From: an uncultured Saprospiraceae bacterium
GTDB lineage: Bacteria; Bacteroidota; Bacteroidia; Chitinophagales; Saprospiraceae
DNA: 56,533 nucleotides
NCBI GenBank assembly: GCA_937951615.1
Contig: CALFBH010000015.1
Location: 1-56,533 of the forward strand
Direction of reading: 5' to 3'
Part shown: piece by piece, positions 5,998 through 54,616 of the stretch
How positions within the stretch are numbered: position 1 is the stretch's first letter
How the letters are laid out: every line of letters starts with the position of its first letter
The notes under the pieces: generated by a model
The model's database searches: none
The model's input: the letters and a program-made list of their open reading frames with translations, nothing else
What the model was told of the DNA's origin: nothing
Made by a program: the position numbers and the translations under genes

Positions 5998-6000
5998 AGC

Positions 6001-6068
6001 GTGTTGTCGTGCGCATGTGTTGATGTGTTGATGTACATCAACACGTCAATACATCAACACACCAACAC
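6001..6068. repeat. Intergenic micro-repeat hairpin element (coreless)
   Basis: Two 34-nt arms meeting at the palindrome GATGTACATC (6030-6039). The left arm is built of GTGTTGAT-like units and the right of their complements; about 27 of 34 positions pair. It begins 4 nt after the fadN stop. It may act as an mRNA stabiliser or processing hairpin between the two genes. One of the family described in the findings. Confidence 0.75.
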
Positions 6069-6114
6069 GGAATAGATTTACTCAATCAACTAAATAACTT
6101 AAATAGACAACAAA

Positions 6115-19930: not shown

Positions 19931-20098
19931 GTTGAGTTAATTGTGTTACTGAGTTGATTGAGTTATTGTGTTGATTGTGTTATTGTGTTATTGTGTGTAT
20001 TTTGCGTAGCAAAATAACTACTACTGAATTAACTTAATAACCCAATATACTTAATAACCCAATACACTTAATCAACCTAATTACTCCATCAACTCAAT
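19931..20098. repeat. Intergenic micro-repeat hairpin element with conserved tip
   Basis: Left arm (19931-19998) of TGAGTTATTGTGTTGAT-like units, tip ATTTTGC-GTA-GCAAAAT (19999-20015, 7-bp stem with triloop), right arm (20016-20098) of AACTTAATAACCCAAT-like units. It fills the whole space between rfbB and uxs and runs into the uxs stop codon (20089-20091). Any promoter or ribosome binding site for rfbB must lie inside it. Confidence 0.85.
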
Positions 20099-31641: not shown

Positions 31642-31760
31642 TTGAAAGTTTAACTTTGCGCTTTGGAACAGTATTTGAATTTACCCCATCAAAGAAAAGT
31701 TTTTTTCTTTTAAAATAGAAATGACTGTGTAAATTTACAACTTAAAATCAGCAACTTACG

Positions 31761-31814
31761 TTCAGGTTCTACGTTTACTAAACCTACATAGGTTTAGTAA
31801 ACGTAGAACCTGAA
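31761..31814. repeat. Perfect 26-bp inverted repeat with 2-nt spacer
   Basis: Arms 31761-31786 and 31789-31814 are exact complements (starting TTCAGGTTCTACGTTTACT), with CA in the middle. There is no T-tract on either side. It lies between two divergent genes, so it is not a terminator. It could extrude as a cruciform or bind a large dimer. Confidence 0.9.
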
Positions 31815-31859
31815 CCGAACCAAACATAAAATATTCGCTCACCCAAAAAATACTTTATT

Positions 31860-33392: not shown

Positions 33393-33404
33393 GCTACTGA
33401 AGAA

Positions 33405-33484
33405 ATGAGAGAATGAGTAGATGAATAAATGAGTAAATGTGAAAATCATTTATTAATTTTATCATTTACTCATTTACTCATTAG
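33405..33484. repeat. Intergenic micro-repeat hairpin element (coreless)
   Basis: Left arm of AATGAGTAGATGAATAAATG-type units (33410-33439); right arm CATTTACTCATTTACTCATT (33463-33482). About 23 nt of AT-rich sequence separates them. It ends 9 nt before the aldehyde dehydrogenase start. Confidence 0.75.
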
Positions 33485-34944: not shown

Positions 34945-35080
34945 GGTGTCGATGGTCGATAGTCCATAGCTGGAAAGGCAACCGACTCAATTGATTCAAG
35001 TTCTTAAATATTTTGCTTTGCAAAATGAATTTTATTCAACGTTTTTTCTATTGACTATCGACCATTGACTGCAACTCACC
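34941..35080. repeat. Intergenic micro-repeat hairpin element with conserved tip
   Basis: The left arm (34941-34970, with GTCGATGGTCGATAGTCCATAG) pairs with the right arm (35048-35080, with CTATTGACTATCGACCATTGAC). The tip is ATTTTGC-TTT-GCAAAAT (35010-35026). The arm words differ completely from the element at 19931, while the tip stem is identical. Confidence 0.85.
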
Positions 35081-37310: not shown

Positions 37311-37378
37311 AAGAATTGTGTGATTGTAAAATTGTCCTTCACAACAATTTCACCATCACACAATTTTTTACAATTCCT
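37311..37378. terminator. Inverted repeat between convergent genes
   Basis: GAATTGTGTGAT and AAAATTGT on the left pair with ACAATTT and ATCACACAATT on the right, ending in TTTTTTA. It is built from micro-repeat words like the other elements but works as a terminator position for both the FMN-binding gene and the convergent SPFH gene. Confidence 0.65.
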
Positions 37379-41071: not shown

Positions 41072-43870
41072 ATGGCTAAAATCATCATATTTTCCATTAT
41101 ATATCTGCTATCCCACAGCTTAATGGCACAAGATTGTAATGCCCCTAAATTCAGAAAAGAAGTCCACCAGGCACAAAAACAACTCAAATCTGTTGAGGCT
41201 GTTCATCAATATTATAAAAAGCTGATTGGGAACATGCAAGGGAATGAAAGCTGTTCATTGGATTCATTGGCTTACGCCCAATTGAAATATGGTATATCGC
41301 TGTCGCGAAAAAGACTATATGAACAAGCTATTGAACAACTCGATAAAGTAGAGCAGACGAAGCAAAAAAGTCTTTCCAAGGATATTGACCTGGTTCGGGC
41401 TTATCATTTCAGAGGAGAGTTTTATGAAAAATTAGGACAACTGAATCAAGCCATTCTACATTTTAAAACTGCTTTAGCAATACAATTAGACATTGACGAT
41501 AATAATCAACTGGAATATCGTTATATGCGACTCGGAACTGCCTGTCAAAAACTAGGCGACTATAAGCAAGCCATTGAAAATCTCGAAATCTCCAAGCAAA
41601 TTCACTTAGACATTTTTGGTGCAAAACACGTCTATACAGGCGAAGTTTATAATGATCTCGGAACTGCCTATACAGATAATCGTGATTTTAAAAAAGCAGA
41701 GACCGCACTTCAAGCTGCTATTCAAATTTTCAAAGAAAAAGGCAAGACTCGCAATCTTATCAAGGCCTATAATAATCTCGGTTACAGTTATGGCAAACAG
41801 CAATTGTATGGCAAAGCTGCCAATATTTACAAAGAAGCTGGTCTACTATGCATCAATAATGATTCGGAAGATTGTATAAAAGCCACTAATAATCTTGGTG
41901 TTGCATTAATGAAAATAAAAGCCTACAAAGAAGCAGAAATATATTTTAATGAAGCATTAGACAAGAAACACAACCAGCAGAACAATTTAACTTTTCATTA
42001 TTCCTACGCTGCTACCTTAGAAAACCTTGCAGACTTAAAATTGCAGCAAGGCAATCACAAAGACGCCCTCCAATATTACCAAAAAGCACTCCTCAATTTA
42101 ACCGATAATTTCAGAAGCAAAAACATTCGCGAAAACCCAACCATCAGTCATAATACATTCATCTATTCCAAAATCGACCTCATTCGCGCCTTAGATTTAA
42201 AGGCAAAAGCTGCCCTAAAAGCCCACAAAAAAACAAAAGATAAAAAGTACTTAGACATTGCCTTCCAAACTTATCAAACACTCGACGAATGGATAAGCAT
42301 CTTTTACCGAGACTTGACCACCGATGCTGCTATGCTAACTTGGATTGCTCATTCTCATGAAATATATGCCCATGCCATACAGGTTGCCTTGCAAGCCGAA
42401 CAAGCAGAAGTTGCCTTCCATTTTGCAGAACGCGCACGTGCTGTATTGCTTTGGCAAAGCCTTTCACAATTGGACGCCCGAAATCTGCTCAGTGAAACCG
42501 ACCGAAAGGCAGAAGACCAACTCAACAGCGACATTCGTCAAAATGAGCAAGCTTATTTTGACACACAAGACACAGAAAAAGACAGCTTGCGAATTGTCAT
42601 TCAGCAACTAAATTTGAAAAAAGAAAAACTCATTCAGTCTTTTGAAAAAGCATATCCCGAATATTATAATCGTAAATATGATGCAGACTTTATTACTTTA
42701 AAACAGGTTCAAGAAAAATTGCTTGATGAAAAATCTGCCTTGATAGAATATTTTTTGACAGATGACATATTATATATTTTCACGATTACTCAAACTGATA
42801 TTTTTACAAAATCTATTGAGATGAATACCGATTTTTATGAAAATATGAGTCTTTTCAAAAATCTCATTAGCAACCCTAACAGCGAACTAACAGCTTATGC
42901 TAAACCAGCTCATGCTCTACATCAAACCCTTCTTGCTCCCGTACAAAATGAACTGCCCAAGCAGATTGACAAACTGATTATTGTGCCAGATGGCAGACTC
43001 AATTATATCGTCTTTGAAGCCTTACTGACCCAAGCAATTGATCTAGCCGAAAACAGTCAGTTCAACCATAAATTGCCTTATTTATTTAAAAAATATACCC
43101 TCAATTATCTATATTCCTGCAATTCTGCTTTTGGGCTTCAGCAAGTCAAAAAACACCCTGACCGCCAGCAGTTTCTTGGCATTGCTCCAGTATTTAGCAA
43201 GCAAGCTGATTGTCCATTATCCGCTTTGCCCAATAGCAAAAAAGAAGTTACGGCTATAGCCGAAATGTATGAGGCGAGTCAGGTACTCATGAATGGACAA
43301 AGCACTCGGGACAATCTACTCCAACATATTCCCGACGCTGATATTATCCACATCGCGTCCCATGCCACACAAGAAGGCAAAATTTTTCTGCACAATTGTG
43401 AAGTCCTGACACAAAAAGATATACAAGCACAAACCTGGAATACTAGCCACGTCATCCTCAGTGCCTGCGAAACGGGAACTGGCCTACTCAGCAAAGGAGA
43501 AGGTGTATTAAGTCTTGGCTGGAGTTTTGCCTATAAAGGCGTTCCGAGTATCGTCATGAGTCAGTGGCAGGCCTCCGATGCCGGCACCAAAGACCTTATG
43601 CTGGCTTATCATCGGTTTCTCCGAGAAGGGCGTCCTGCGGATCAGGCTTTATGCGATGCAAAGCATTATTATTTTTCCGATATTGCGACATCCACTAAAG
43701 AAATGCATCCTTATTATTGGGCAGCATTTATACATAGTGGACAGCCTGTAAAAGCAACTGGTCATTTACAAAACTTATGGACAGCCTCAACAGGTTTTTT
43801 GCCTTCTCCCTTACGTTACGGGCTGTTTATCCTAGGAATTGTTTTATTTTTATGGCGGTTTTTTAAATAG
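41072..43870 (+). CDS. TPR-CHAT caspase-like protease, secreted and membrane-anchored
   Basis: 932 aa from the ATG at 41072, which opens a signal peptide (KIIIFSIIYLLSHSLMAQ). The frame extends upstream to 40931 but that part crosses the structured element. TPRs run from about 40 to 400 (AIEQLDKVEQ, AILHFKTALAIQ, ALQYYQKALLNL), then a coiled coil. A CHAT domain follows with catalytic H764 (HIASHATQEG) and C799 (LSACETGTG), and WAAFIHSG at its end. A C-terminal helix (YGLFILGIVLFLWRFFK) anchors it. CHAT domains are caspase-fold proteases, and TPRs usually hold a partner or substrate. The export signal is notable because several known CHAT effectors, such as Craspase, act in the cytoplasm. Confidence 0.9.
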   Translation: MAKIIIFSIIYLLSHSLMAQDCNAPKFRKEVHQAQKQLKSVEAVHQYYKKLIGNMQGNESCSLDSLAYAQLKYGISLSRKRLYEQAIEQLDKVEQTKQKSLSKDIDLVRAYHFRGEFYEKLGQLNQAILHFKTALAIQLDIDDNNQLEYRYMRLGTACQKLGDYKQAIENLEISKQIHLDIFGAKHVYTGEVYNDLGTAYTDNRDFKKAETALQAAIQIFKEKGKTRNLIKAYNNLGYSYGKQQLYGKAANIYKEAGLLCINNDSEDCIKATNNLGVALMKIKAYKEAEIYFNEALDKKHNQQNNLTFHYSYAATLENLADLKLQQGNHKDALQYYQKALLNLTDNFRSKNIRENPTISHNTFIYSKIDLIRALDLKAKAALKAHKKTKDKKYLDIAFQTYQTLDEWISIFYRDLTTDAAMLTWIAHSHEIYAHAIQVALQAEQAEVAFHFAERARAVLLWQSLSQLDARNLLSETDRKAEDQLNSDIRQNEQAYFDTQDTEKDSLRIVIQQLNLKKEKLIQSFEKAYPEYYNRKYDADFITLKQVQEKLLDEKSALIEYFLTDDILYIFTITQTDIFTKSIEMNTDFYENMSLFKNLISNPNSELTAYAKPAHALHQTLLAPVQNELPKQIDKLIIVPDGRLNYIVFEALLTQAIDLAENSQFNHKLPYLFKKYTLNYLYSCNSAFGLQQVKKHPDRQQFLGIAPVFSKQADCPLSALPNSKKEVTAIAEMYEASQVLMNGQSTRDNLLQHIPDADIIHIASHATQEGKIFLHNCEVLTQKDIQAQTWNTSHVILSACETGTGLLSKGEGVLSLGWSFAYKGVPSIVMSQWQASDAGTKDLMLAYHRFLREGRPADQALCDAKHYYFSDIATSTKEMHPYYWAAFIHSGQPVKATGHLQNLWTASTGFLPSPLRYGLFILGIVLFLWRFFK

Positions 43871-44088
<218 letters not shown>

Positions 44089-46658: not shown

Positions 46659-46780
46659 GTGAGATATTGAGTTATCAGTTGATTATGTTATTATTATTTT
46701 GCGCAGCAAAATACACATTCTAATAACTCAACCAACTTAGTACACTTGATTAACTCAATACACTCAATAACTCAAAAAAC
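46657..46780. repeat. Intergenic micro-repeat hairpin element with conserved tip
   Basis: Left arm of TTGAGTTATCAGTTGATTA-type units (46657-46695), tip ATTTTGC-GCA-GCAAAAT (46696-46712), right arm (46713-46780) of TAATAACTCAACC-type units. It starts at the gcvH stop and ends 7 nt before the VanZ-like start. Confidence 0.85.
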
Positions 46781-46787
46781 CAGATTC

Positions 46788-54512: not shown

Positions 54513-54613
54513 CTGTATTGGAGTGTTGATGTGTTGTCGTGCTGATGTGTTGTTGTGGATTTGCTACGCAAAATGTAGTACTTCAACACTGCAACACATT
54601 AACACCTCAACAC
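54513..54613. repeat. Intergenic micro-repeat hairpin element with near-conserved tip
   Basis: Left arm of GTGTTGATGTGTTGTCGTGC-type units, tip ATTTGC-TAC-GCAAAAT (54559-54574; one T shorter on the left), right arm of CTTCAACACTGCAACACATT-type units. It ends 4 nt from the stop codon of the small membrane protein. Confidence 0.8.
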
Positions 54614-54616
54614 AAT

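Follow-up and report, generated by a model that had tools for sequence, protein, structure and literature searches.

How can a DNA element keep the same hairpin tip at hundreds of sites while its arms change from site to site and still match each other? The question is raised by a spacer in a 56,533-nucleotide contig of an uncultured Saprospiraceae bacterium (GCA_937951615.1, contig CALFBH010000015.1). The whole of this contig is here called the window, and the genome to which it belongs is designated G000. An initial annotation, made from the letters of the window, described five intergenic hairpins with a shared TTTTGC-N3-GCAAAA tip, a triplet loop that differs each time and self-complementary arms of unrelated sequence, and it offered slippage under selection for pairing or repeated conversion from a template as ways in which they might have arisen. 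We examined these elements in the window, in the rest of the genome and in related genomes.

Results

Elements in the window

All five tips are present, four with exact cores and the fifth (54559–54573) with one stem mismatch (Table 1). This count, taken at no more than one mismatch, compares with a mean of 0.55 in shuffled sequence, and none of 100 shuffles reached five. An Rfam 15 scan of the window at gathering score found no match at the elements; its sole match, at positions 1–51 on the − strand and so at the edge of the contig, was to part of a group II intron (group-II-D1D4-3). A scan with one gene that flanks an element gave relatives at 68–73% identity in Saprospiraceae, Chitinophagales and other Bacteroidota.

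Table 1. Tip-bearing elements and tip-less inverted arrays in the window, with the loop of each tip as read on the strand named
Feature	Position	Strand	Description
Element 1	19931–20088	.	arms of GTGTTATT/GAGTTGATT units; occupies the entire spacer between two GDP-mannose dehydratase/epimerase-like genes
Element 1 tip	20000–20014	+	TTTTGC-GTA-GCAAAA; R-N-A loop on + strand
Element 2	34948–35069	.	arms 34948–34969 and 35048–35069, RGTCSAT type; downstream of an aldehyde dehydrogenase gene
Element 2 tip	35011–35025		loop AAA on − strand
Element 3	43870–44073	.	GATGCGGG/GATGCGAG arms; limits by eye
Element 3 tip	43958–43972		loop GGA on − strand
Element 4	46659–46787	.	GAGTTATT/GAGTTGATT arms; occupies all of the DNA separating gcvH from a VanZ-family gene
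Element 4 tip	46697–46711		loop GCA on + strand
Element 5	54519–54616	.	GTGTTGAT/GTGTTGTC arms, limits by eye; spacer upstream of mutL
Element 5 tip	54559–54573		loop GTA on − strand; one stem mismatch
Inverted array without tip	6000–6069	.	GTTGTCGT/GTGTTGAT units; same general class
Inverted array without tip	33394–33484	.	GAATGAGTA/AATGAGTAA units
Inverted array without tip	37311–37368	.	GTGATTGTAAAATTGT units

Number and conservation of the tip

A search of the whole G000 genome, which the initial annotation had proposed, found 384 exact TTTTGC-N3-GCAAAA tips, far more than the five first seen, against 1 match to the reversed control. When the 30 orderings of four T, one G and one C were compared in an 840-kb sample, part of which was chosen around listed tips, TTTTGC stems occurred 50 times and every other ordering 0 or 1 times. 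A sample of 2.03 Mb, which is 29% of the genome and was also partly chosen around listed tips, contains 115 exact tips (111 of them with a loop of the form R-N-A), where 112 would be expected by share. Within these 2.03 Mb, R-N-A tips number 111 exact and 32 with one mismatch, and eight dinucleotide shuffles average 0.0 and 8.6; the possibility that the tip is no commoner than in shuffled sequence is thus contradicted. At two mismatches there are 236 matches (shuffles, 110.9), among which the 111 tips appear again as read from the other strand. By these counts the tip is a sharply conserved sequence and not a decayed repeat. Compensated changes in the tip stem show no clear excess (8/14 against 3.0/9.25 in shuffles). 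At one locus (L312:14983-15225) an apparent tip is enlarged to a longer perfect palindrome, made of TTTTGCGGA, TGTAGCGATAATTC with its complement around AT, and then TCCGCAAAA.

Loop sequence

The loop proved to be constrained and not free: genome-wide in G000 it reads R-N-A on one strand, and hence T-N-Y on the other, in 365 of the 384 tips (192+173). The 2.03-Mb sample contains AAA (40), GAA (30), GTA (11), GGA (10), GCA (9), ATA (5), AGA (5) and ACA (1), with GCT, CAT, ATT and TTG as the four loops of other form. A-N-A loops, which may also be stable in DNA, account for 51 of the 111 R-N-A tips. In the portion of PMC4686876 used here, DNA mini-hairpins that have a GNA or GNNA loop and two or more G-C pairs are described as extraordinarily stable and nuclease-resistant. 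The tip hairpin, which presents GC-RNA-GC on one strand, is probably very stable as DNA.

The rule does not hold everywhere. R-N-A loops are 34/36 in G003, 22/24 in G115, 80/91 in G146, 12/16 in G122 and 16/25 in G046, and the rule is weak in G114 (21/44), G056 (32/79), G015 (10/25), G125 (7/16) and G018 (4/18). Two further relatives, G150 and G152, provide no test of the rule because their tips were collected by the R-N-A pattern. In G114, the elements with RGTCSAT arms bear other loops, and G056 has a family with a fixed AAC/GTT loop; at one such G056 locus (L404:1501-1515), where the stem is the same, the flanks resemble those of the ATA-loop loci L201 and L214 of that genome.

As a general law of hairpins the loop rule is not supported, the lean being weak outside TTTTGC stems. 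Specifically, C-closed triloops in spacers divide into 21 of the R-N-A/T-N-Y form and 9 others (4.7 and 4.3 in shuffles), C-closed GNNA/TNNC tetraloops number 7 against 0.7 in shuffles, and other 8-bp stems divide 17 to 15 in the 840-kb sample and 10 to 11 in 1.12 Mb of the named relatives. DNA folding energies were dropped as a test of the loop, since the available parameters assign all 64 loops one value. RGTCSAT or AAGTTT arrays centred on other GNA/GNNA caps (AGTGCC-GAAA-GGCACT, GTTGCC-TTC-GGCAAC) occur at L397:16079-16333, L073:2185-2432 and L034:2011-2347.

Pairing and unit types of the arms

The arms are inverted arrays, mostly of 7–8 bp units. Heptamer tandem arrays in intergenic DNA are familiar from cyanobacteria, where they are called STRR. 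Periodicity was detected in 111 of 224 G000 arms (period 7 in 57, 8 in 36, 14 in 11, others in few) and in 64 of 146 G150 arms (period 7 in 29, 8 in 26, 9 in 6), and where both arms of an element are periodic the period is equal in 24 of 34 and 17 of 19 cases, respectively.

For 112 G000 elements, the mean local score is 13.5 between an element's own arms, 9.3 when the right arm is taken from another locus and 7.7 for shuffles. The best of 20 shuffles is exceeded by 70 of these elements but not by the other 42; in G150 it is exceeded by 55 of 73. The picture of a constant tip with variable, self-complementary arms therefore holds on average, as it does at the gcvH–vanZ spacer described below, but not for the 42 elements that score no higher than their shuffles. 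In G000 arms other than RGTCSAT, in-register identity over the first 8 nt from the tip is 0.41 (0.33 with swapped arms) and is near background farther out. In RGTCSAT arms it is 0.34 (0.37 swapped), and in many of these elements unpaired sequence separates the arms from the tip. These data do not show selection for pairing, given the 42 of 112 elements that fail against the best of 20 shuffles and the near-background in-register pairing past 8 nt.

Unit types were assigned from a dictionary picked by eye, so that counts of arm types are descriptive. On this basis both arms belong to one type in 45 of 55 typable G000 elements (random expectation 0.32), 25 of 31 in G150 (0.14) and 13 of 13 in G152 (0.73), and arm types are unlike in 10 of the 55 and 6 of the 31. 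The units belong to a limited number of recurring types, of which RGTCSAT alone fills 71 of 216 G000 arm slots, and the claim that arms at different loci are unrelated has to be given up. The leading units differ by species: RGTCSAT in G000, GATTTTT in G152, and GATTTTT, CGGTCTGTAGACCG, ATTGTTTC, GTTACGGG and GAGTTGACG in G150. RGTCSAT elements have a body of about 150 bp that is common across species (eight matches in G114, at 75–81%) and, judged by this similarity, look like homologous copies that have been dispersed; the other arm types that were inspected have only the cap in common. Dispersed hairpins with GACGACTTTAGCCGTCG-type arms were also seen in G000 spacers (L281:14996-15192, L017:3532-4062, L083:9980-10235).

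Polarity of the arms

Read toward the tip, the arms tend to be rich in G on either side of it, and T is likewise enriched over A in that direction. At a skew above 0.2, 48 of 112 G000 elements are G-rich on both sides, 2 are opposite and none is C-rich on both, the other 62 being below threshold on at least one side; in G150 the corresponding counts are 31, 4 and 0 of 73. Mean GC/TA skews are 0.42/0.22 for non-RGTCSAT G000 arms, 0.27/0.16 for non-RGTCSAT G150 arms and 0.14/0.11 for RGTCSAT elements. The polarity is retained in poorly pairing elements, where 20 of 45 are positive on both sides and 1 is opposite. When whole spacers are classified in this way, those with an exact tip are G-rich on both sides in 23 of 58, with 0 opposite and 0 C-rich on both, whereas hairpin spacers without a tip have no such polarity (7, 5 and 6 of 88); the counts for non-hairpin spacers are 9, 34 and 21 of 253.

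Genomic placement

With open reading frames (ORFs) called crudely and covering 87.5% of the DNA, 88 of the 111 R-N-A tips fall outside ORFs and 23 inside, and some of the called ORFs that hold tips are perhaps spurious. A tip is present in 82 of 987 spacers of at least 60 bp (8.3%), divided as 54/589 tandem, 22/188 convergent and 6/210 divergent, and divergent spacers are thus poor in tips (6/210 against 76/777, Fisher p 0.0006). The same is true of hairpins generally: at a score of 16, hairpin-like spacers are 102/491 of the tandem, 45/159 of the convergent and 13/194 of the divergent ones (13/194 against 147/650, p 1e-7). Spacers scoring at least 14 number 219 of 844, against 0 when shuffled; 41 of them contain an exact tip and 52 a tip at no more than two mismatches. 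The tip elements are one family in a genome where extragenic hairpins abound. Of 55 tips in tandem spacers, 37 are closer to the upstream stop, and the strand that carries the R-N-A loop is sense to the gene in 30 cases and antisense in 25.

The same spacers in other species

Three of the window's spacers were compared with their counterparts in G114, G150 and G152. The gcvH–vanZ spacer of element 4 has a tip in G000, G152 and G150, with three different arm pairs whose own-arm scores are 11.0, 23.0 and 19.0, respectively; in G114 the gcvH stop codon immediately precedes the next start codon and there is no element. The counterpart of element 1 consists of inverted AAGTTT arrays without a tip in G150 and G152 and of an unrelated spacer in G114. 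Downstream of the aldehyde dehydrogenase gene, inspection by eye found no element in G114, G150 or G152, leaving G000 as the sole carrier. G114 therefore lacks an element in 3/3 of these spacers.

In the G000 DNA examined, adjacent orthologous flank was found for 25 of 74 G150 tips (one, L362, looks coding), and G000 has a tip in the same spacer in 3 of the 25. This does not rise above the 8.3% of spacers of at least 60 bp that bear tips (p 0.34), and a conserved position between G000 and G150 was accordingly rejected; in all three shared pairs the arms differ, by eye. Similarly, 2 of 12 G152 tips correspond to a G000 tip, again at chance level. Because sharing with G000 is at chance in both comparisons, the case for inherited position comes entirely from the close pair G150/G152. 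From G152 to G150, with 38 of 55 tips examined, orthologous flank was found for 11, and 9 of these 11 have a tip at the same place. The 11 exclude L452 and L456, which have only short repeat-like G150 matches, and L450, L454 and L455, which have no match. In the reverse direction, 11 of 77 G150 tips have flank in the G152 DNA examined, with 6 shared, 4 absent and 1 at a contig end, a count that overlaps the 9 of 11 and leaves out eight of the G152 loci. The null of 0.3 for G150/G152 sharing is an estimate, because the G150 DNA examined centres on tips. One of the nine shared pairs looks coding: at L448:1501-1515 in G152 and L344:2001-2015 in G150 an exact tip is kept in both species in apparently coding sequence.

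The eight non-coding pairs were read by eye and changed in several ways. In L422/L324 (own scores 23.0 and 19.0) and L457/L338 (10.5 and 13.0), both arms have been replaced and are matched within each species. In L451/L328, AGTTSAT occurs in both arms of one copy and AGTCSAT in both arms of the other, and L430/L327, which share one arm family, have TTTTCG and TTAACG, each in both arms. Arms are conserved in L435/L380 and L449/L350 (L449 stops at a contig edge), an array is missing from the G152 right arm in L423/L376, and the G152 copy has decayed in L453/L346, where own scores are low in both species. The loop is inverted in four of the eight pairs (L423, L430, L435, L449) and uninverted in the other four. 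Mean scores are 15.4 and 18.4 between own arms and 19.2 and 23.0 for the same arm across species, the latter containing flanking gene bases and not being used as a test. Since the own-arm means are no higher than the cross-species means, concerted change is seen at particular loci and not across the whole set. No change was observed at the level of strains.

Distribution among genomes and search for a transposase

Among 150 genomes of the family, 139 hold 0–10 tips and bursts are confined to a few genera, the highest counts being 384 in G000, 91 in G146, 79 in G056, 44 in G114 and 36 in G003. Across the phylum, 69 of 247 genomes have an R-N-A tip, with a maximum, besides the window's own genome, of 17 (G342). 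In G146, at least 19 pairs among the tips listed lie 116–123 bp apart, and 17 of them are inverted. At L203:1501-1635 of that genome, two inverted tips 120 bp apart lie within a larger inverted repeat that has an inner hairpin.

An exact tip was found at 1 of 30 Y1_Tnp loci examined with up to 1.5 kb of flank, and at 0 of the 3 examined among the 4 in G000. Across 16 genomes the number of Y1_Tnp genes does not track that of tips (for example, 4 in G000, 0 in G114, 0 in G046 and 9 in G018). A Y1 transposase as driver was rejected, being unassociated with tip number or tip neighbourhood where searched. Within 12 nt of the tip, a GTAG tag was found at 8 of 108 G000 tips and CGTC at 1 of 108; in G150 the counts are 2 and 0 of 73.

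Discussion

The elements described here are a new variety of extragenic palindromic repeat that partly behaves like a template-switching quasipalindrome, and a literature search with repeat words and repeat-family topics gave no description of this build among the matches listed. They resemble REP, REPIN and BIME sequences, as these appear in the parts of PMC3733652 and PMC3116915 considered, in having a short palindrome with a small loop, hundreds of intergenic copies, lineage-specific expansion and an organization into singlets and inverted dimers, the latter here in G146. Those families are GTAG-/CGTC-tagged, whereas the tip elements are untagged and no palindrome-flanked Y1 gene was found in the loci checked, which places them outside the tagged REP/RAYT group. 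Also unlike REP, their arms are 7–8 bp arrays that vary by locus and species under a constant cap. Likewise, the quasipalindromes treated in PMC8794818 and PMC7202029 are imperfect inverted repeats whose arms change together, with a G/T-rich 5′ arm, loop inversions and a proposed role for DNA-stable loops. In the sections drawn on, however, four-base loops are the ones enriched; the tip elements have one constant triloop genome-wide and array-built arms, and these arms do not pair in register outward from the cap. The TAACTGA heptamer arrays, as far as PMC4679880 was used, are similar 7-bp-class direct repeats in spacers, including those of five Bacteroidetes, but are mostly direct arrays of one unit, in contrast to the many inverted units oriented by the tip. 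In Fusarium mitochondria, palindromic microsatellite elements (PMC7218506, in part) share inverted microsatellite arms, a short spacer, optional presence between species and a proposed mobility; they differ in having (A)n/(T)n arms, 14–16 copies, a mitochondrial location and, in that portion of the account, no constant cap with a loop rule. Finally, the GC-GNA-GC core of the tip is of the same sequence class as the d(GCGAAGC)-type DNA mini-hairpins of PMC4686876, which the passages used treat as an engineered stabilising motif and in which they describe no genomic repeat family.

Our leading explanation, to which we assign a probability of about 0.4 and which is therefore tentative, is that these extragenic palindromic repeats have a cap that promotes hairpin template switching, and that this switching re-matches the arms. 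Specifically, while replication or repair keeps the DNA single-stranded, the GC-RNA-GC cap would snap shut and the nascent strand would copy the opposite arm in a template switch of the quasipalindrome type. Such switching would re-match arms following a change, could invert the loop when it crosses it, and would raise the share of G and T in the 5′ arm. Slippage within arrays, together with exchange with loci of like cap and units, could supply new arm sequences. This model does not cover how the cap came to be present at hundreds of sites. Of the two origins first put forward, the paired arm changes in G150/G152, which were read by eye, and the species-specific arm vocabularies favour template conversion and speak less for simple slippage.

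Candidate template-switch events, in the parts of PMC8794818 that concern us, are enriched in the DNA-stable GNRA and CUUG loops; intrastrand switching is suggested there to favour G-C and U-A pairs, which would put more G and T in the 5′ arm. Loop inversion is assigned to an interstrand route. The cap chemistry, loop inversions, matched arm changes and polarity seen here fit these parts of the published account. Other parts of it argue against template switching: three-base loops are depleted at candidate events (3.52% versus 6.11%) while four-base loops are enriched, and very stable loops are thought unlikely to be inverted, to which the poor in-register pairing of our elements must be added. 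Furthermore, the loop inversions and the G/T asymmetry would belong to different routes of that scheme. The elements that fail to beat shuffles (42/112) or have unlike arms (10/55), the weakness of the loop rule in relatives, where G114 RGTCSAT elements have other loops, the A-N-A form of 51 of the 111 loops, the lack of a clear excess of compensated changes in the tip stem, the dispersed-copy look of RGTCSAT elements and the chance-level tip sharing with distant relatives all weigh in the same direction. Because in-register pairing beside the cap is missing, switching would have to happen inside the arrays, and simple snap-back copying is disfavoured since it should pair first the bases near the tip, where pairing drops to near background past 8 nt and where many RGTCSAT elements have unpaired sequence.

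A mobile family of REP or MITE type is a possible alternative, which we rate as only slightly less probable than template switching. A transposase acting in trans would recognise the single-stranded GC-RNA-GC hairpin and move arm–tip–arm cassettes, each arm type would be a subfamily, and where species share a spacer but differ in its arms, replacement or independent insertion would be responsible. The bursts of copy number in few lineages (139 of 150 genomes with 0–10 tips, 384 in G000), the RGTCSAT body of about 150 bp common across species, the inverted tip pairs of G146 (17 of 19 among the tips listed), which recall REP dimers, the absence of an element from G114 at the three compared spacers and the chance-level tip sharing between more distant species all point this way, and for the RGTCSAT subset and for G146 the transposase reading remains strong. 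For the family as a whole, however, the GTAG/CGTC tag is absent (8 and 1 of 108), Y1_Tnp, the sole transposase family tried, has a tip nearby at 1 of the 30 loci examined and does not track tip number in 16 genomes, and 9 of 11 assessed tip positions are common to G150 and G152 though some arms differ.

Hairpins that act in RNA at transcript ends, as terminators, processing sites or exonuclease blocks, with pairing selected and arms drifting yet complementary, seem to us improbable. The depletion of tips (p 0.0006) and hairpins (p 1e-7) from divergent spacers, which together with the position of 37 of 55 tandem-spacer tips nearer the upstream stop would suit such a role, also follows from promoter avoidance. 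Of 112 elements, 42 pair no better than shuffles, the loop rule suits a DNA hairpin and ignores the strand of the gene (sense 30, antisense 25), G114 has no element at three of these spacers, and Rfam gave no match at the elements. Least probable by far is a duplex protein-binding palindrome, TTTTGC-N3-GCAAAA, that lies by chance in repeat-rich spacers: although about half of G114 tips have other loops (21/44 R-N-A) and exact palindromes with mixed loops are scattered through many members of the family, the G000 preference for R at loop position 1 and A at position 3 is asymmetric for a palindromic site, and the tips lie between inverted arrays and avoid the divergent spacers where operators are expected.

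Returning to template switching, the mixed-arm elements and the polarity kept by poor pairers fit an exchange of arms anchored at the tip. One can imagine, although we regard it as unlikely in this full form, that the tip, as a DNA mini-hairpin, is a genome-wide exchange anchor at which forks of replication or repair trade arms among hundreds of loci, always in one orientation, and afterwards copy one arm anew onto the other; the result would be dispersed, self-matching repeats with species-specific arm vocabularies, kept by the mechanics of copying, with neither selection on arms nor a transposase maintaining them. It is an old question how long stems remain paired without stepwise compensation, and hundreds of natural replicates with one cap make it possible to compare, in a single genome, how loop chemistry, arm type and replication strand affect re-matching. 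Should template switching be true, "compensatory" changes in bacterial hairpins need not signal selection on RNA structure. Arms swapped as matched pairs, with the hairpin kept, offer a natural case for how bacterial DNA rewrites itself, and such elements may add to the fragmented assemblies and very variable intergenic DNA of this family.

Other palindromes

The window also contains, at 31760–31815, a 27-bp perfect inverted repeat with a 2-bp centre (GTTCAGGTTCTACGTTTACTAAACCTA). A similar word, GTTTACTAAAC, occurs in a spacer hairpin at L074:16714-17121, and the two perhaps belong to another dispersed palindrome family.
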